Part shown: positions 11,047 through 20,795 of the stretch, one piece after another
Layout of the letters: each line of letters opens with the position of its first letter
Position numbering within the stretch: the stretch's first letter is position 1
DNA from: Actinomycetes bacterium
GTDB lineage: Bacteria > Actinomycetota > Acidimicrobiia > Acidimicrobiales > Ilumatobacteraceae
Direction: 5' to 3'
DNA: 40,685 bases
Assembly: GCA_025360105.1 (NCBI GenBank)
Contig: JANYCT010000041.1
Location: 1-40,685 of the forward strand
Notes under the pieces: generated by a model
What the model was told of the DNA's origin: nothing
Database searches by the model: none
What the model saw: the letters and a program-made list of their open reading frames with translations, nothing else
Position numbers and translations under genes: made by a program

Positions 11047-11062
11047 ACATATCTGAGTATGT
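11047..11062. promoter_or_regulatory. inverted repeat ACATA-N6-TATGT at the dab operon start
   Basis: A perfect 5-base inverted repeat with a 6-base spacer sits between the divergent genes. It overlaps the first possible dabB ATG (11059). It could be an operator for the winged-helix protein encoded at the end of the same operon. Short palindromes also arise by chance, so confidence is low. Confidence 0.3.
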
Positions 11063-12600
11063 ATGGTCGGTTCATGAGTTTGTGGCCTCTCGTCGCGTTT
11101 CTCGTCATGCTTTCTCCGGTGCTGGCCGTGGGTGCTGCGTCTGTTGTCGGCCTGGCGGGAGTGGACGCGCTGCTCTCGGCTCTTGGCGTGGTTGGTGCAA
11201 TTGCGCTCGTCGTACGAGTCTCAATGCACGGTTCCGTGCAGATCACCGGTGACTTGTTCGTGGTCGATCGGGTGGCCGCCGCATGGACCGTGTTTGCGCT
11301 GGTAGTGGTTTTGGCCATTCGTATTTTCTCGCGGCGACTGCTCGCAGGTGATCCGCAGCGGCAACGTTTCCACGTCAGCAGCGCCGTCGCTGCAACCACG
11401 GGTGCGGCCTTGTTCTGCGCAAGCAATCTTGCGGTGATTGCCGGTATCGCGATGGCGACGAGCATCGCCTCGGCGGCTCTCGTGGGTTGCCGTCGCGACG
11501 GCGTGCCCGTGGCGCGACGCATGGCCATGGTGCTGCTCGGAGGCGACGCGCTACTCGCGACTGCCGTGCTGATCATCGCTCTCGACACGTCGATCACCGG
11601 GTCACGGGCGCTCGGCCAGATCACGGGTGCCCCCGCCAACATCGCCGCGACGCTCGTTGTTGTTGCAGCACTCGTGCGATGCGCGCAGGTTCCATTTCAC
11701 GCCTGGCTGCCGCGCACGCTCGTTGCTCCGACTCCCGCTTCGGCGCTGCTGCATGCCGGACTGGTCAATGCCGGAGGCGTGATTCTCATTCGCTTTGCGC
11801 CTCTGGTTGCGCGGTCGCTCAGCGCAACGATCTTGGGCATTTCTTTGGCCACACTGGGAATGGTGGTCGGAGCCGCGGTGATGCAGACCCGTTCCGAGGT
11901 GAAGAGCGGACTCGTCTGGTCCACGACGGCCCAGATGGGGTTCATGCTCGTGCAAATCCTCGTGGGCATCGGACCCGCTGCCGCGATGCACCTGATCGCA
12001 CACGGCGCGTACAAATCAAACCTGTTCCTGTTGAGCGGATCCACAATCGAGCACGACGCGGAAACGCATCCTCCAATCACCATGGTGCAGCACGTTGCAG
12101 CCCTGGTTCTGGCGGTAGTCATGGTTGGCGCTGCCGTGGCGAGCACTGGCTATCACCTCAGTGGTTTCGGGGGAGCTGCAGCGCTGATCCCTGTCTTCGC
12201 TGTCCTGACCGTGCACGCCGTATTGGCGGGTCGGATCGGTTTGCCGCGCCGCGCCGCTCGTTCCACTATTGCGCTGGTGGTCGGGCTGACCGTTGCGGCG
12301 ACCGTCTATCTGGCTCTCATCAACGGGTTCGAGTCATGGCTCCGGCTTCCTGAAGCAATCCCGAGCGGCGCGCGCATCTTGACCATTCTGGTCGTGGTGG
12401 CATCGATCCTGGGATCGGTACTGACCTCTGGCTCACGACTTGTACCAGACCAGCTGGCCATCGCCATCCGAGCACGTGTGCTCGCAGCTGGACGCCGCCC
12501 AGCGATGCAGGCTGCGACGCTCGTCAGCACAAAGGTGGCCGCGTCGGCCCATCCGCAACTCTGCGACCACGCTGTCGCGGTGCGTTCGGGAGCATCGTGA
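11059..12600 (+). CDS. dabB: DabB: NADH-quinone-oxidoreductase subunit-5-like ion channel of the DAB carbon transporter
   Basis: An approximately 513-residue polytopic protein of the proton-conducting NuoL/MrpA family. It keeps the core signature VPFHAWLPRTLVAPTPASAL, followed by LLHAGLVNAGGVILIRF and the later helix with VWSTTAQMGFMLVQI and HLIAHGAYKSNLFL. It is shorter than true NuoL and lies directly before a DUF2309 gene rather than in a complex I cluster, which identifies it as DabB. In the DAB system this subunit is proposed to couple a cation gradient to CO2 hydration by DabA. Its stop overlaps the dabA GTG (GTGA). A second ATG at 11074 (MSLWPLVAF) may be the true start, since it would leave the inverted repeat at 11047-11062 upstream. 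Confidence 0.9.
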   Translation: MYGRFMSLWPLVAFLVMLSPVLAVGAASVVGLAGVDALLSALGVVGAIALVVRVSMHGSVQITGDLFVVDRVAAAWTVFALVVVLAIRIFSRRLLAGDPQRQRFHVSSAVAATTGAALFCASNLAVIAGIAMATSIASAALVGCRRDGVPVARRMAMVLLGGDALLATAVLIIALDTSITGSRALGQITGAPANIAATLVVVAALVRCAQVPFHAWLPRTLVAPTPASALLHAGLVNAGGVILIRFAPLVARSLSATILGISLATLGMVVGAAVMQTRSEVKSGLVWSTTAQMGFMLVQILVGIGPAAAMHLIAHGAYKSNLFLLSGSTIEHDAETHPPITMVQHVAALVLAVVMVGAAVASTGYHLSGFGGAAALIPVFAVLTVHAVLAGRIGLPRRAARSTIALVVGLTVAATVYLALINGFESWLRLPEAIPSGARILTILVVVASILGSVLTSGSRLVPDQLAIAIRARVLAAGRRPAMQAATLVSTKVAASAHPQLCDHAVAVRSGAS

Positions 12601-14981
12601 CCAACACACCAAACCTGATCCATCGTGTCGACATCGCAACACTTGTCGATGTCGCTCAACGGGTGGTTCCGCCGATGTGGGGCCTCGACGGGTTCGTCGC
12701 AGTGAATCCTCTGGGGGGCTTTGAGGACCTGCCATTCGAGACTGCGGCGCTGAAGGCGGGCGATCTGTTCGGGGCCCAGTGCTACCTCGCATCGAATGTC
12801 GATCGGTCGAGCGGCTCCCCTCTCATCACTACGCCGCTGAGCCACATCGCCAGAGCCGGCCTCATCAACGCGCCACGTATGCCGTCGGTCGAGCTGACCC
12901 GCCGAGGTACCGCCCACGTGGCCGAACTCGCTGACATGTACCTCGCCCATTGGTGCGCCAGCGTTCCGTGCGGACCCCTTCATGCGCGGGCCGGGCACGC
13001 AGGTTTCTTCGCGACGTGGCGTGCTCTCGCCACGCACGATCCCGATCTCCGCCGCCTGGCAGGGCGCGAACTCGCCAACCGCGTTTGCGCGCTTCCCGTC
13101 GTCGCCGGCGAGGCTGTTGCTGTTCTCCTGCAGCAGCTCGGCATCGCAGAGGACGATGCGGTGTCGTACCTCGAGGCACAGCTGACACGTTTGCCGGGGT
13201 GGGCCGCGGTCATGGCTCGTCGCGTCGTGGGAGGCCAGCGCCATGCGATGGTCGAGTACGTGGCCGTACGGCTTGCGCTGGAGCGAATCCTCGTCGATGC
13301 CAGCCGGACGCCGAGTTGTGTCGCTACTGAACACGGTGGCGCACCGGACTTGAGCAATCGAGCCGCGCAGCAGCTCGCTGCAGAGCACGCGTATCGCGAT
13401 CACCTGTTGTCGCTGCTCGCAGCGAATGCTCATGCTCGTGAGGGCGCTGAGGTCATCAGCGACAACAATCGCCCGTCGGCCCAAGTGGTGTGCTGCATCG
13501 ATGTTCGCTCCGAGGGACTGCGCCGTCATCTCGAGGCAATTGGACCGTACGAGACCTTCGGTTTTGCAGGTTTCTTCGGCCTTCCGATCGCCGTGCGTGG
13601 CGCGACGGCGACTGCAGCAGTTGCGTCGTGCCCGGTAATCCTCGATCCGAAGGCAATGATTGCCGAATACGTGGTGACAGGTTCGCTCCCTGCACCGGAG
13701 GATCGCGACCTCGCACATCGTTCGTTTCATGCTGCCAAAGCCGGGGCCACCTCGGGGTTCGTCCTCGCCGACGCGTCAGGTTGGTTGATGGCCCCACGCA
13801 GCCTGCTGCAGGCCGCGATGCCTGGTTTCTACTCGCGCGTGCAACACGCAGCGCGAAAGCTCATGGGTCGTCGAGTGCGCACACGATTCGCGCTCGACGT
13901 CAACTCGGTCTCTGCCACCGACGGGCGCGACGGCGACGGGCTGTCGGTCGATGAGCAGGCCCAACTCGCACTGGGTGCGTTCACTGCGATGGGCCTCACC
14001 GGCGGGTTCGCGCCGATTGTCGTGCTGTGCGGGCATCGCAGCGCCAACCAGAACAACCCCTACCGGTCTGCACTCGATTGCGGGGCGTGCGGAGGACATG
14101 CAGGTGGCCCCAACGCACGCATCCTTGCCGCCATCTGTAATCGAGCCGAGGTGCGCGCTCGTCTGGCTGATCACGGCATCGTCATCGGCGAAGGCACGTG
14201 GTTCGTCGCTGCCGAACACGAAACCACCGACGACACTGTGGCCCTGCTCGATGTTGACGATCTGCCAGTATCCGCGCGCGGCCTCCTCGAAAACGTCGAA
14301 CGCGATTTCGCCCGCGCGGGTGTTGCGAACTGCGCAGAACGGGCGCTGTCGATGCCGTCGTCACCGCTTGCTTGGCGTGGGGCCAGTCGCAGCAACGACC
14401 CGGCGCAGGTGGTGCCCGATTGGGGATTGGCCCGGTGCGCCGCAATCGTGGTCGGGCCGCGCGCGTTATCTGCGGGGCTCAACCTCGAACGTCGCACGTT
14501 CCTGCACTCGTACGCACCCCTCGATGATCCCGAGGGCATCGTGCTCGAAGCGGTGATGACCGGACCGGTGGTGGTGGCGCACTGGATCTGTTCGCAGTAC
14601 TACTTCTCCACGGTCGACCCGCACGCGTTCGGGGCTGGCTCAAAGCCGTTGCACAACGTGATCGGCAGAGTCGGCGTCGGCGAAGGATTGGGGGTCGATG
14701 TTCGCATCGGCCTACCGCTTGAATCGGTCTGGTTCGACGGCCACCCGGTGCATGATCCGCTGCGTTTGCTGGTGGTCATCGATGCCCCAGCCGAACGGCT
14801 CGATGCCGTCATCGCCCGCAACCCGGTACTGCGGCGGTTGTTCGATCACGGCTGGGCAAGCGTCGCGATTTGCGACTCGAACGAACCCTCGGGTTTCCGG
14901 TGCCGCTCGCGGGCTGGAACGTGGGAATCCTGGAATTCGGTATCGCCTCCGGGCATGCATCGCCACCTACCATCACTCTGA
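12597..14981 (+). CDS. dabA: DabA: DUF2309 zinc-dependent carbonic-anhydrase-like subunit of the DAB transporter
   Basis: A 794-residue protein of the UPF0753/DUF2309 family. The N-terminus has the family motif GLDGFVAVNPLGGFEDLPF. The zinc-site motif CIDVRSEG places Cys300 and Asp302. CGHRSANQNNPY gives His480 and LDCGACGGHAGGPNAR gives Cys495. The spacing (Cys-x-Asp; His then Cys 15 residues later) equals that of the characterised Halothiobacillus neapolitanus DabA (C351, D353, H524, C539). In that system DabA with DabB converts CO2 to bicarbonate vectorially and accumulates inorganic carbon. GTG at 12597 overlaps the dabB stop. The RBS-preceded PII-like gene follows after 16 bases, so the four genes are one operon. 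Confidence 0.93.
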   Translation: MTNTPNLIHRVDIATLVDVAQRVVPPMWGLDGFVAVNPLGGFEDLPFETAALKAGDLFGAQCYLASNVDRSSGSPLITTPLSHIARAGLINAPRMPSVELTRRGTAHVAELADMYLAHWCASVPCGPLHARAGHAGFFATWRALATHDPDLRRLAGRELANRVCALPVVAGEAVAVLLQQLGIAEDDAVSYLEAQLTRLPGWAAVMARRVVGGQRHAMVEYVAVRLALERILVDASRTPSCVATEHGGAPDLSNRAAQQLAAEHAYRDHLLSLLAANAHAREGAEVISDNNRPSAQVVCCIDVRSEGLRRHLEAIGPYETFGFAGFFGLPIAVRGATATAAVASCPVILDPKAMIAEYVVTGSLPAPEDRDLAHRSFHAAKAGATSGFVLADASGWLMAPRSLLQAAMPGFYSRVQHAARKLMGRRVRTRFALDVNSVSATDGRDGDGLSVDEQAQLALGAFTAMGLTGGFAPIVVLCGHRSANQNNPYRSALDCGACGGHAGGPNARILAAICNRAEVRARLADHGIVIGEGTWFVAAEHETTDDTVALLDVDDLPVSARGLLENVERDFARAGVANCAERALSMPSSPLAWRGASRSNDPAQVVPDWGLARCAAIVVGPRALSAGLNLERRTFLHSYAPLDDPEGIVLEAVMTGPVVVAHWICSQYYFSTVDPHAFGAGSKPLHNVIGRVGVGEGLGVDVRIGLPLESVWFDGHPVHDPLRLLVVIDAPAERLDAVIARNPVLRRLFDHGWASVAICDSNEPSGFRCRSRAGTWESWNSVSPPGMHRHLPSL

Positions 14982-16343: not shown

Positions 16344-16373
16344 TTGACTGCTGGCAAGTTGTGGCGGTATCTT
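16344..16373 (+). promoter_or_regulatory. sigma70-like promoter before the DUF2855 gene
   Basis: TTGACT (16344-16349) and TATCTT (16368-16373) are separated by 18 bases, with five and four matches to the -35 and -10 consensus. The element lies about 50 bases upstream of the ATG at 16422, a fitting distance. Assigned by eye only. Confidence 0.4.
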
Positions 16374-16421
16374 TGCCAAAACATTTGGCCGAGCGTACGG
16401 GCAACTTTGGGAGAGTCACGG

Positions 16422-17522
16422 ATGGACATCGAGGTCGCACACGGTGACCTGTCGAGGGTTCGCATCGTCGAGGACCCGCCGACCCAGTTGCTGGCAGGGC
16501 ATGTCCGAGTGCGAGTCGACACGTTCGCGCTCTCGTCGAACAACATCAGCTATGCCGTGTTCGGCGACATGATGCGCTACTGGCACTTCTTTCCGGCTGC
16601 TGCGCCCGACGCGGGCGAGTCCACTGTGTGGGGTCGCATTCCCGTGTGGGGCTTCGGCGACGTGGTCGAAACCCGATCGGCCGATCTCGCGGTGGGAGAG
16701 CGGTTGTTCGGCTACTTCCCGATGGGCTCGGATCTGGTGATCGAATGTGGCCGTGGAGACGATGCCGGCGTCACCGACGTGTCAGCCCATCGTTCGGCAT
16801 TGGCCTCCGCGTACAACCGCTATGTCCGCTGCGAAACGGACCGTTCGTATCACCGAGATCGTGAGGACCATCAGGCTCTACTGTTCCCGCTGTTCTTCAC
16901 CTCGTTCGTGGTCGATGATGTGCTTCTCGACAACAGCGACTTTGGGGCCGAACAGATCATCGTGTCGAGTGCATCCTCGAAGACATCCATCGGCGTTGCC
17001 TTTCAGGTCCGCCAGCGCGGTTGTCACGTCGTGGGCCTCACCTCGCCAACCAACGTGGCCTTTGTCGAGAGCCTCGGCGTCTTCGACGAAGTGCTTGGCT
17101 ACGACAGCGTCGCGTCGATCGCGACTGTGCCATCGGTATACGTCGACGTGGCCGGTGACCGTGTGGTGCGCTACAACGTGCACTCCCAACTCGGCGGCCT
17201 TCTGGCCCACTCGATGATCATTGGCGGCACACATTGGGACAGCCCCGATCACGGCGGCGATGCCAAGTTACCCGGGCCGACGCCGACGTTCTTCTTCGCG
17301 CCGAGCCAGATCTCGAAGCGATCGAAGCAGTGGGGCCGGTCCGGGCTCGACGAGCGCGTCGGTGAAGCCTGGGATCGCTTTGCCGAGTGGGTTGATGGGT
17401 GGATCGAATTTCGACACGCTGTCGGCGCAGGTGTTGTGTCCGCGGTGTATCTCGATCTGCTCGCGGGCCACGTGGACCCACGGATTGGTCACATGTGTTC
17501 GCTGCAGGTCACGACTGCATGA
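16422..17522 (+). CDS. DUF2855 family protein (MDR-like)
   Basis: A 366-residue protein resembling medium-chain dehydrogenase/reductase enzymes of the DUF2855 family. The N-terminal part (VRVRVDTFALSSNNISYAVF, then WGRIPVWGFGDVVET) is the GroES-like half. The middle segment (IIVSSASSKTSIGVAF) is the nucleotide-binding entry, with Ser/Ala in place of the usual Gly-rich turn. The tail holds PTPTFFFAPSQISKR, typical of the family. No zinc ligands are evident. The catalysed reaction is not established for this family. The ATG at 16422 follows GGGAGAG. The stop overlaps a small open frame by ATGA. Confidence 0.85.
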   Translation: MDIEVAHGDLSRVRIVEDPPTQLLAGHVRVRVDTFALSSNNISYAVFGDMMRYWHFFPAAAPDAGESTVWGRIPVWGFGDVVETRSADLAVGERLFGYFPMGSDLVIECGRGDDAGVTDVSAHRSALASAYNRYVRCETDRSYHRDREDHQALLFPLFFTSFVVDDVLLDNSDFGAEQIIVSSASSKTSIGVAFQVRQRGCHVVGLTSPTNVAFVESLGVFDEVLGYDSVASIATVPSVYVDVAGDRVVRYNVHSQLGGLLAHSMIIGGTHWDSPDHGGDAKLPGPTPTFFFAPSQISKRSKQWGRSGLDERVGEAWDRFAEWVDGWIEFRHAVGAGVVSAVYLDLLAGHVDPRIGHMCSLQVTTA

Positions 17523-17681: not shown

Positions 17682-18392
17682 ATGTCTGATCGCCCCAAGA
17701 TCCGCTACGGCACACCGAACTTCGAGATGATCCGCGGTTGGCTGAGCATGCCGGCCGAGCAGGACGGTCCTTTCTGGGCCGTGAACCTGATGAAGTATCG
17801 CGAGGTCGCCGACTATGGCGACGGAACCACCGCCACACGCTCGGGTCGCGACGCCGATGACGAGTACTCGCCGTTGGGTCCGCTCGCAGCCATCGGCGCG
17901 ATCGTGGTGATGGCTGCCACAGTTACATCGCAACTGGCCGGGGAGCCAACGTGGGACCGTGTTGCGATCGTGCGCTACCCCAGTCGGTCAGCATTTATGG
18001 CGATGCAACAGCGCGACGACTTCAAGAGCAAGCACGTGCACAAAGAAGCGGGCATGGAGTTCACGATCGTCATGTCGTGCTTGCCGCAGTGGACCAGTGA
18101 CGCGGCCCCCATCGCTAAAGGGTCGTATGTGATGCGCGTCAGCCGCTTTGCCGAAGGCGACGCATCGCCGACCGACGTTGCGGGCGTTCGACCGCTCTCG
18201 CGTTTCGCCGTGGAAGGTGTGATCGTTGGCGACGAGCGCCGCTTCACCGAGGTGCGGTTCGACTGGGTGGACGACGATCTGCTGCCCGATCTCGTGATCG
18301 CGAGCACCGCAGTTGAGGAGTTTGTGATGACGTTGCGTCCCGCCATCGACAAGCTCGTCACGTCAGTAGCCACTGCGCCGAAGGCGGGTTGA
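17682..18392 (+). CDS. dimeric alpha/beta-barrel protein (DUF1330-like)
   Basis: A 236-residue protein. FWAVNLMKYREVADYGDG, then SRSAFMAMQQRDDFKSKHVH, is the pattern of DUF1330-like dimeric alpha/beta-barrel (ferredoxin-like) proteins. The core is interrupted by a hydrophobic stretch (GPLAAIGAIVVMAATVTSQL), which in this fold is a buried strand-helix rather than a membrane span. The second half repeats a beta-rich pattern (GSYVMRVSRF, then VEGVIVGDERRFTEVRF), so a tandem of two such domains is possible. Function unknown. GAAAGGA at about 17668 serves the ATG at 17682. It is convergent with the GrdB-related gene, with 12 bases between the stops. Confidence 0.75.
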   Translation: MSDRPKIRYGTPNFEMIRGWLSMPAEQDGPFWAVNLMKYREVADYGDGTTATRSGRDADDEYSPLGPLAAIGAIVVMAATVTSQLAGEPTWDRVAIVRYPSRSAFMAMQQRDDFKSKHVHKEAGMEFTIVMSCLPQWTSDAAPIAKGSYVMRVSRFAEGDASPTDVAGVRPLSRFAVEGVIVGDERRFTEVRFDWVDDDLLPDLVIASTAVEEFVMTLRPAIDKLVTSVATAPKAG

Positions 18393-18404: not shown

Positions 18405-19559
18405 TCAGCGCTGCCCGGGTGTCATGTAGAACCAGATCGCGAACTTCGCCCCGGCGTCGCGGATCGCGGCACGTGCGCCGAGCATTGTCTTGCCCGCCTC
18501 GGTCTGTTCGAAGAACCAGTCCTCCATCGCTCGACCTCCAGGAAGCGGACCATCAACGAGTTCGAGCGCCGCTTCCTCGTAATAGGTACGAATGTCGTGG
18601 CACACCGCCACGGTGTTGCCGCCCGGGATGCCGGCTGCGGTCCATTCGGCGCCGTTGGCGATGGCGTGCAGTACACCGATTGCGTGCGGTACTTCATCCG
18701 CGCTGACGGCGCGGCCAACCGAGGTGACTCCGCGTCTCGCCAGCGCACGGTCGTAGGCCTTGCGCAGGCCACGGGCTTCATCGACCGCTGGCGGTAACGA
18801 GGGATCGAACCGGGGCGGCAATGCGCAGGCCACCGGTTGGTCGTCGGCTTCGATGACCTCGGGGTGGTCCACCAACACCGGTCCCGATGAAGCGTCGAGC
18901 AGAGCGAACGCGCGCGCCAGAAGGTCGTGTTGGAACTCGGGGTCCGACGGCTTGCCCAATGGCCGGCCGAGCGGGAACTCGCAGTGCAGTGCTCGTGGGG
19001 GAGCGACCTTCACGGCCACTTCACGCACCGACGACAACACGATGGTGGCGATTCCTGCTGCTTCGAAGACATGGGCGAGCACACTCACGGTGCGCGTGCA
19101 CAGCGGTCAAACGGGCGTGAGGATGACCACGTCCACGCCGTCGGCGCGCAGCGCAGCGGCCGCTGCCGGGCCCGTGTCGAGGCGAATCGTGGCAACGTCG
19201 TCGGGTTGGTTACCGGCGAACGACACGTGGCGTCGAGCCACGGCGCCGATGATGCCGCGCTCGGCAAGTTCTTCGAGTCGATCGATGGGGTACACCACGT
19301 TGAGGTCCATCGCGACGCCGGTGTGATCGAAGTTCGGGCTCCAGTGGCCCAACACCAGATCACGACGATCACGCTCGATGAACCGGTAGCCCGTGTCGGC
19401 GTTCGAAAAGCCATCGTCGCCAACGGCGTAGAGCGCGGCGGATGTGACGATGGCGACGGTGCTCTGCGCGAGCGGCTTTGGAGTGACCCACGCCGGGTTG
19501 GGGAACTCGGGTGCGGGCAGTGTCGCCGCATGGGCCCGCATCATCTGATCGCCGGTCAT
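18405..19559 (-). CDS. candidate selenoprotein: GrdB-related reductase-family protein with in-frame TGA (U-P-L-C)
   Basis: Two open frames, 19559-19110 and 19106-18405, are in the same register and separated only by TGA at 19107-19109. Read through as selenocysteine, the product has 384 residues with Sec151 and Cys154: VVILTPV-U-PLCTRTVSVL. The flanks belong to the glycine/sarcosine/betaine/proline-reductase selenoprotein B family. The TGA precedes PLC exactly where clostridial GrdB has UxxC and where, from memory, aerobic relatives have a CPxC motif. Downstream, APPRALHCEFPLGRPLGKP and the C-terminal IPGGNTVAVCHDIRTYYEE are family-like and undamaged. A hairpin suited to a bacterial SECIS follows the TGA. 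Annotation tools would report two genes (the second starting at GTG 19088). Known GrdB forms part of a substrate-reductase complex; this standalone form may be a thiol/selenol oxidoreductase. The alternative is a nonsense mutation of a Cys codon. Confidence 0.72.
19075..19099 (-). promoter_or_regulatory. candidate bacterial SECIS hairpin after the in-frame TGA
   Basis: Counting from the base after TGA, bases 12-17 (GCGCAC) pair with bases 23-28 (GUGUGC) as six base pairs with one G-U. They enclose a 5-base loop, CGUGA. Two more pairs (bases 8-9 with 31-32) flank a 2x2 internal loop. The second loop base is G, 18 bases after the TGA. This fits the bacterial SECIS pattern as I recall it: a hairpin just downstream of UGA with a guanosine in the first two loop positions, roughly 16-37 bases away. 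It lies within coding sequence, as bacterial SECIS elements do. Confidence 0.55.
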
Positions 19560-19639
19560 CGCGTCAGAGTAATCATCTGTGTCACGTTGTGCCGCATGCA
19601 CTGACACGAGATTGTGGGTCCGTGTAGGCGGCCGACGCA

Positions 19640-20319
19640 TCGGGCTCCGAGAAATTGTGGACAGTGGAGCACGTCGTTGCGCCTTCCGACTACGAATCGG
19701 CGTACCCGTACGACCCGTCGGGCAAGATGCCTGGTGGCGAGGATTCCCCTATTCCCTGATCCATTGATCTGGTTGGCGTTCATTGCGTCGGCGAGTTCGT
19801 TGTTGGCAGGTGCTACGGACGCGACGTATCGGTCGGGTCGCACGATGACGGCACCCCCGGGCGGCAGCGCATGGTCAACGATGCCCCGCTCGACACGATC
19901 GAGCTTCCACGCGAGTTTGGCGGCATCGCGCAATGCCCGCACACAGTCCCTGTCCTAACAACGGTTGCGTCTGGTGGGCAGCGTCGCCCGCAACGAAGAT
20001 CCTTCCGGCATGCGCACACTCAGCCACGTGTGCATGGAAGCGGTAGATGACCGCCCGGGTAAGGACTGCATCCTCGCTCGTGATCCATGGAGCCAACAGT
20101 TCTCAGACGCGCTGTGGTGATGGCGTCGAGTCCCTCGCTGGGTCCGTTGTTCTGGAACACGCGCTGGACCTCGTCGTCCATCACGATTGCTCGAGGTAGG
20201 TCGTAGATCTTCGGCGCGTTCTCGAGCACCCGAACGTGGAGGCCGCGCTGCAAAAGCAGCAACGCAATCATCAAGCCAACAGGGCCTTCGCCGACAATCA
20301 ACACATCAACGTCAGTCAT
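19640..20319 (-). pseudogene. MhpA-like FAD-dependent aromatic hydroxylase, internally deleted remnant
   Basis: The frame from ATG 20319 begins MTDVDVLIVGEGPVGLMIAL, the Rossmann FAD motif, and continues RAIVMDDEVQRVFQNNG as in 3-(3-hydroxyphenyl)propionate hydroxylases. It then jumps to LAPWITSEDAVLTRAVIYRF and FVAGDAAHQTQPLLGQGLCA (the second FAD motif), in another frame. RDAAKLAWKLDRVERG and finally HALPPGGAVIVRPDRYVA, the C-terminal end, lie in a third. Intact family members have about 500-600 residues; here about 220 are left, so at least two large internal deletions and two frameshifts have occurred. Its start overlaps the end of the TetR remnant by a few bases, showing former operon structure. 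Confidence 0.8.
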
Positions 20320-20795
20320 GTCGTGTGCCTCCATCGGGTGCAAGGAACATGAGCGCCAGAGCGTCCACATGGGCACCGACGGAGCGCTCGTCGAGCGGTT
20401 CGAGTACGAGCAGGCGAGCCTCGGGTGCATTCACGCATGCCAACGATGCCGCCCCGATGAGCGAGAAGTACGCGACGATCTCGGCGATGTCATGCACCTG
20501 CCCGCTCTCGCGCAGGCAACGCCAATTCTCGGTGACGAGATCGAAACGCGACCGGGTGTGCCGCTCGACGATCCACTCCAGCCGATCGGATTCGATGGTG
20601 GCTTCTTGCACCATGATGCGGTTCAGTTCGGGGAGGCCGGCCGCAGCGCGTCTTTGGACTCGACGTGGTAGTTGATTTGCGGTTGATGCGTACCTGCTCG
20701 TGCGGCGATGGTTCGCGTCGAGGCGCCCTCGCCAGGCCGCAAGGATGTGGCGCCCGGGTCAGCGAAGGTGTCGGGTACTCGGCGCCCGTGGCCGG
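20312..20795 (-). pseudogene. TetR-family regulator remnant
   Basis: One frame holds the helix-turn-helix ASTRTIAARAGTHQPQINYH with ESKDAL, the classic TetR recognition helix. It then stops at 20623. The ligand-domain part (LPELNRIMVQEATIESDRLE, then WIVERHTRSRF) resumes in another frame to a stop at 20312. Compared with the usual 190-210 residues, roughly 50-60 residues between the two parts are gone, with a frameshift. The 5' boundary is approximate. It probably once controlled the adjoining aromatic hydroxylase gene. Confidence 0.65.

Follow-up and report, generated by a model that had tools for sequence, protein, structure and literature searches.

An in-frame UGA very probably encodes selenocysteine in a PrdB-like protein with an additional C-terminal domain from Acidimicrobiia

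The closest described relatives of the protein analysed here are selenoproteins assigned to PrdB. In the portion of the Sargasso Sea survey at hand, a selenocysteine (Sec)-containing 'proline reductase PrdB' is among the most abundant selenoprotein families, represented by 42 sequences with a UxxC motif (PMC1088965), and the corresponding portion of the survey of the GOS data equates the PrdB selenoprotein with pfam07355, again with UxxC, and counts 235 Sec and 110 Cys sequences (PMC2398784). As these marine surveys already list Sec, its occurrence in the PrdB family is not new. The proteins described below share with the marine family the combination of UxxC and Sec, the assignment to pfam07355 (GOS) and environmental abundance, a likeness that is drawn from labels alone; in the excerpts at hand, both surveys report neither subfamilies nor a C-terminal domain (PMC1088965, PMC2398784). 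Similarly, the accessible portions of the literature on acidimicrobial selenoproteins, on PrdB- or GrdB-like selenoproteins and on DUF2855 yielded no description of a longer UPLC branch as separate from PrdB.

The gene in question lies in a stretch of 40,685 nucleotides, hereafter the window, from a genome of 3.89 Mb in 105 contigs that is 96.9% complete. Its central features are these:

18405-19559, minus strand: the whole probable selenoprotein gene, 384 codons plus a TGA stop (ATG at 19559, stop at 18407-18405)
19107-19109, minus strand: the in-frame TGA, codon 151 (probable Sec), aligned with the internal TGA of two annotated PrdB genes
19098-19100, minus strand: the codon of Cys154, which completes the U-P-L-C motif and does not vary in an alignment of 50 rows

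Codon 151, which is followed by Pro-Leu-Cys154, is the sole interruption of a frame of 384 residues, and the protein obtained by reading through it resembles its relatives along its full length in the alignment. Thus the view, reached from the letters of the DNA by an earlier sequence-only reading, that one continuous protein of 384 residues spans the TGA is borne out; the strand, on which that reading was silent, is the minus strand. Its warning that automatic annotation would split the gene was also well founded, as gene calling with table 11 yields two false frames at the TGA, 18405-19088 and 19107-19640. The gene has one match in its own genome, and among named relatives the closest are MAGs titled, for example, Actinomycetota, Acidimicrobiaceae or Ilumatobacteraceae. 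In the family, genome, PDB and plasmid searches the query protein carried one extra residue, the terminator being written as C. The proposal that the TGA encodes selenocysteine is supported by four lines of evidence, namely the conservation of the TGA column, a covarying SECIS hairpin, the presence of selA, selB and tRNA-Sec, and the co-occurrence of the gene with selA. On these grounds the gene is identified as that of a selenoprotein, and we put at about 0.93 the probability of an intact bacterial selenoprotein gene that encodes a PrdB-like variant.

The sequence-only reading had raised the question of whether relatives carry Cys or TGA in this column. Codon-by-codon reading of 101 homologous loci, the window included, returned TGA in 100 and TGT (Cys) in one. 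The loci comprise 71 from one public collection and a further 30, the window among them, from genomes of the order; the two sets overlap and hold duplicates, and they reduce to 82 distinct contexts, 81 of which have TGA. Because none of the peptide patterns used to fetch the 71 loci spans residue 151, there was no selection for TGA among them. The relatives range from 88% down to 40% identity to the window protein, and the retention of TGA across this range indicates that it is old and maintained. The sole Cys orthologue (L086, titled SAR92) has the motif C-P-L-C and, together with a paralogue that carries CPAC (L121), demonstrates that Cys forms exist, which to that extent agrees with the CPxC relatives that had been mentioned at the outset. 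One of the loci (L081), from a MAG titled Akkermansiaceae, has a Sec gene that is 69% identical to that of the window, with a best aligned piece of residues 140-384 only; the partial alignment suggests a frame break in the gene, and the contig is possibly mis-binned.

It could be argued that the TGA arose by nonsense mutation of what was once a Cys-type gene, and that the window copy is a pseudogene. A Cys codon needs a single base change to become TGA, and there is gene debris next door; indeed the caution expressed earlier about broken neighbours was justified, since out-of-frame pieces at 19.75-20.75 kb appear by eye to be remnants of an FAD-monooxygenase and a TetR-like gene. The remainder of the frame is, however, intact, and the TGA is kept in all but one of the loci down to 40% identity, in the company of a covarying hairpin and of Sec machinery. 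A pseudogene is thus an explanation to which we attach almost no weight.

The evidence that we rank above both the machinery and the TGA column is a hairpin downstream of the UGA, for which the sequence-only reading had not looked:

19079-19095, minus strand: candidate SECIS hairpin with a 6-bp stem (19095-19090 with 19084-19079), a 5-nt loop, G at loop place 2 and 17 nt from the UGA to the loop

According to the part at hand of the paper that describes it, the bSECIS model allows a loop of 3-9 nt, a stem of 4-16 bp, G in the first two loop places, a spacing of 16-37 nt and a minimum free energy (MFE) of at most -7.5 (PMC13188914). Numbering from the U of the UGA as 0, bases 14-19 of the selenoprotein genes pair with bases 25-30 around a loop of 5 bases. 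All six pairs are formed in 79 of the 81 distinct Sec contexts and five pairs in the remaining two, loop place 2 is G in every one of the 81, and the MFE of nt 3-45 does not exceed -7.5 in 80. With its loop of 5 nt, stem of 6 bp, G at loop place 2, spacing of 17 nt and an MFE within the limits in those 80 contexts, the element shows no difference in type from the bSECIS model. The stem exceeds what the coding sequence would provide: the mean number of stem pairs is 5.98, whereas 1000 synonymous-codon shuffles give a mean of 4.14 and at most 4.52, and the mean MFE over 26 nt is -9.98 as against -5.84 in 100 such shuffles. Folded alone, the hairpin of the window is not more stable than its shuffles (z 0.10), and the support for the structure is thus comparative. 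When the hairpin is treated in this way a second register is slightly favoured; that register forms 6/6 pairs in only 35 of the 81 contexts, as against 79 for the main register, and was rejected.

The pairing partners also change together. At the pair 17-27, the 80 Sec rows placed on a tree comprise 40 with C-G, 39 with U-A and one with C-A, and at least 10 changes of state are required on a quick tree from which the hairpin columns were left out and in which 24 of the 78 inner branches are starred. Restricting the analysis to well-supported branches leaves 4 independent pairs, concordant in 3.9 of 4 cases on average, with a median p of 0.125, a sample of four that cannot reach 0.05; among the control positions listed, trait b was mostly without difference. 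The change at base 27 tracks residue 160, for the most part Thr (ACG) or Val (GTG); the structure of the RNA thus constrains the protein. A covarying hairpin that is tied to Thr or Val at this position provides a clean natural example of a coding sequence shaped by recoding.

The hairpin is degraded in the Cys orthologue (4/6 stem pairs, MFE -2.7), and the Cys paralogue retains 2/6 stem pairs. Eight distant Sec paralogues were also folded; 6/6 pairs were obtained in five, which use other stem sequences in the same register, four pairs in L135 and two pairs in L136 and L137. The last two are short proteins with the motif U-P-D-C-C, in which the TGA is kept and the common register is lost (2/6 pairs); their SECIS elements may be differently shaped.

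The machinery for selenocysteine insertion, a search for which had been proposed from the outset, was found in the genome that carries the gene. The selA (389.3 bits, cut-off 267.9) and selB (282.8 bits, cut-off 242.25) genes are neighbours on contig C60, a tRNA-Sec with the anticodon TCA scores 64.3 bits on contig C25, and selD is present as its 3' part only, truncated where contig C14 begins and scoring 82.9 bits versus the 125 needed. A second match to tRNA-Sec (L013), barely above the cut-off, is a tRNA-Gly according to ARAGORN and was discarded. These genes bear on a further explanation, in which TGA stands for an ordinary amino acid in an altered code, or is a plain stop that is read through. 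Such an explanation accounts for a frame that is open when TGA is read as U. The terminator of the same gene is, however, itself TGA, and the presence of tRNA-Sec(TCA), selA and selB, together with a SECIS-type stem after the UGA, renders it scarcely credible. As judged from the sequence, UGA codon 151 would instead be decoded as Sec by SelB and tRNA-Sec, under the direction of the hairpin, the stem of which begins 14 nt downstream of the U in this codon.

Across the 298 genomes of the order, selA occurs in 87 of the 90 that have a listed TGA homologue as against 92 of the 208 others (Fisher p ~1e-20), and the three TGA-homologue genomes in which it is missing are 78-84% complete. In this comparison selA was counted at E <= 1e-40, giving 179 genomes, 175 of them above the family cut-off, and six weak matches (G021, G180, G210, G226, G246 and G256) were left out. 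The family search matched 114 genomes; the 22 with only unlisted rows were counted among those without a TGA homologue, as were G173 (Cys) and G189 (TGA, frameshifted). Of 14 genomes behind loci obtained from elsewhere, 12 contain selA. No match to selA was obtained in the 1.3-Mb genome of the Cys orthologue L086, in that of the Cys paralogue L121 (G173), or in the Akkermansiaceae-titled MAG of L081, although a TGA homologue is present in the last. Cys at the Sec place is thus found in relatives without a match to selA, encoded by TGT in L086 and by TGC in L121.

The protein is divided into two domains:

18906-19514, minus strand: PrdB-like alpha/beta domain that includes Sec151 (residues 16-218), delimited by an NCBIfam match and the predicted model
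18408-18848, minus strand: additional helical domain at the C-terminus (residues 238-384), which the two PrdB proteins compared lack

The sequence-only reading had placed the protein in the GrdB family. This holds at the level of Pfam, where PF07355 (GRDB) is matched with 25.3 bits versus a gathering cut-off of 22, over profile positions 222-345 of 347 and hence the last third only; the nearest family is, however, PrdB, as the best NCBIfam model is TIGR04483 (121.9 bits, residues 16-218). Similarity to GrdB, GrdF and GrdH (PF07355, TIGR01917, TIGR01918, NF040794 and NF040795) is weak but significant around the Sec motif; the NCBIfam models of these types score 38-47 bits, including 38.3 of 602.2 and 44 of 65.45 bits required for the GrdB models TIGR01917 and TIGR01918. 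Only the later part of the profiles is matched, and every NCBIfam cut-off is missed. The same five NCBIfam models are matched by all 50 rows of the family alignment. From a plasmid collection a protein search returned 24 records, all of which fall short of 80% coverage of the query; the best 10 of the 24 are PrdB- or GrdB-type matches over about half of the query, one of them without a listed gene.

These matches raise the possibility that the protein is a true PrdB, which cleaves D-proline together with PrdA. The alpha/beta domain is homologous to PrdB, TIGR04483 is the best family match, and identity to the clostridial PrdB of Peptoclostridium acidaminophilum is 33% over 219 columns; both have UxxC and their Sec codons align. 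Indeed the TGA coincides with that of two PrdB genes, each of which is annotated across the TGA as a single gene. The score is, however, far below the equivalog cut-off of 300, the window protein has 384 residues whereas the two PrdB proteins have 237 and 241, the motif is UPLC rather than UGTC, and there is an added C-terminal domain of 147 residues. In addition, a tblastn search with one PrdA detected prdA near both PrdB controls (L141 and L142) but neither in the 40.7-kb window nor in the other 140 loci, of which 101 are family loci with flanks of up to 3 kb per side. In both control records prdA is upstream of prdB, with one small gene between them in L142, and the prdA of L141 lacks a gene entry in its record and was detected by tblastn. 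TIGR04480, used as a PrdA search, had no match in the genome of the window, nor in any control genome; the same is true of PF04723 and PF09338 (GrdA- and GrdE-type). By the PrdB criteria tested, the window protein is not a D-proline reductase subunit, and a role as true PrdB is very unlikely. If the branch falls under the marine 'PrdB' label, with which it was compared by label only, the proline-reductase function implied by that label is probably wrong for the branch, because the protein is longer, the motif differs and no prdA was found nearby.

The AlphaFold model of the whole protein has a mean pLDDT of 93.5. The C-terminal domain of about 147 residues is conserved (30 rows) and is predicted to be helical with a pLDDT of 91.4. 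A sequence search of the PDB with the protein revealed no relative at E up to 10, and the three matches obtained when the alignment was used as the query (E 0.13 to 3.3) were taken as chance. Fold searches against PDB chains identified no clear relative of the whole model (best Z 7.7, rmsd 3.2, 138 aligned residues, Rossmann-type arrangement) or of the C-terminal domain (best Z 2.9, rmsd 4.0, 75 aligned); for these predicted models neither a new fold nor its absence is shown.

Two genes on the opposite strand lie beyond the 3' end of the gene:

17682-18392, plus strand: convergent gene of 236 codons, with relatives in L021, L024 and L073, all of which have DUF2855 and the Sec gene
16344-17522, plus strand: DUF2855 gene; of 100 other loci, 15 have a relative of it close to the Sec gene

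The order in the window is thus Sec gene, convergent 236-codon gene and DUF2855, and on the upstream side gene debris followed by a P-type ATPase; in L020 an ATPase of the same kind directly adjoins the Sec gene. The debris (19749-20750, minus strand, several frames) includes, as identified by eye, FAD-monooxygenase-like pieces at 20242-20319 and 19932-20006 and a TetR-like piece at 20498-20676. The relatives of the 236-codon gene in the three DUF2855 loci are clear (about 40% identity), and weaker ones occur in L048 and L084. A PDB relative of its product is RPA0582 (3hhl; E 2.7e-06, residues 26-130). From its position, the DUF2855 protein is a possible functional partner of the Sec protein. 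No DUF2855 copy occurs in 90,530 bases taken from other loci, where about three would be expected at the same rate, and its enrichment near the Sec gene is thus not proven.

Clustering of the neighbours in 100 loci places AMP-binding synthetases (18), sulfatases (17), TetR-like regulators (16) and DUF2855 (15) as the commonest groups, counts that are not independent events because loci from the two collections are duplicated. The clusters are named from one representative each, and that of the TetR-like group is under the Pfam cut-off. In other lineages the neighbours are acyl-CoA synthetase, sulfatase, enoyl-CoA hydratase, GST, metallo-beta-lactamase-fold and TetR-like genes. The flanks vary between lineages and the clustering revealed no universal partner gene; as far as gene content is a guide, the theme of the neighbourhood looks catabolic. 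Elsewhere in the window, at 11059-14981 on the plus strand, there is a DabA-type inorganic carbon transporter (PF10070, 695.6 bits), preceded by an overlapping frame of 513 codons that, by position, would be DabB. COX1 (PF00115) had no match in the genome of the window, which is about 97% complete, and as a control was matched in 8 of 14 genomes; the lack of a match is unexpected if the relatives are aerobic.

How such a protein might act can be suggested by analogy with related families. The PrdB-like alpha/beta domain with its U-P-L-C redox pair is fused to the predicted helical domain at the C-terminus. The selenolate of Sec151 may attack an electrophilic organic substrate or remove a group from it; Cys154 would then resolve the intermediate by forming a selenenylsulfide, which a thiol reductant would recycle. 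In proline reductase, PrdA contributes a pyruvoyl group. Since no prdA was found beside the gene, we infer that this role of PrdA may fall to the C-terminal domain or to the substrate itself. The resulting proposal, a selenol-based reduction of an activated organic compound without PrdA, is a conjecture that we hold tentatively and would sooner doubt than affirm.

Its main rival is a selenoprotein that serves as a thiol-disulfide or peroxide reductase in general redox protection, which we likewise regard as a serious but doubtful candidate. The UxxC pair is in keeping with such an activity, and the marine survey, in the table at hand, places the PrdB family among the thiol-dependent redox selenoproteins (PMC1088965, Table 3). 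It should be emphasized, however, that all five matched NCBIfam models are named for substrate-cleaving reductases, and that the flanks are of a catabolic type (acyl-CoA synthetase, sulfatase, enoyl-CoA hydratase, GST and DUF2855), though diverse. A more elaborate version of the conjectured reduction of an organic compound, which we consider rather unlikely as a whole, is a self-sufficient selenoenzyme, in which a PrdB fold freed of PrdA and furnished with a new helical domain would use reduction to break an activated bond of an organic substrate from the environment. This enzyme would be found in many Acidimicrobiia and in some Gammaproteobacteria-titled MAGs, encoded in or beside variable catabolic clusters and sometimes accompanied by the DUF2855 protein.

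The order also contains paralogues of the gene. Of 20 paralogue regions that were read, 19 have TGA and one TGC, and one of the TGA regions (L122) is frameshifted after the TGA; among the paralogue rows listed, two contain further stops, one TAG in G214:C30, and a second TGA with a TAG in G070:C461. Some genomes of the order hold several TGA members of the superfamily, as in G214, where there are four listed places, one of which also has the TAG. The forms seen in the superfamily (L123-L140, G214 and others) include the long UPLC form, a second with an identity of about 35-40%, and a short one whose motif is UPVCHQ or similar. One short Sec paralogue (L134, G166:C65) has U-P-L-D, with Asp in place of the usual resolving Cys.
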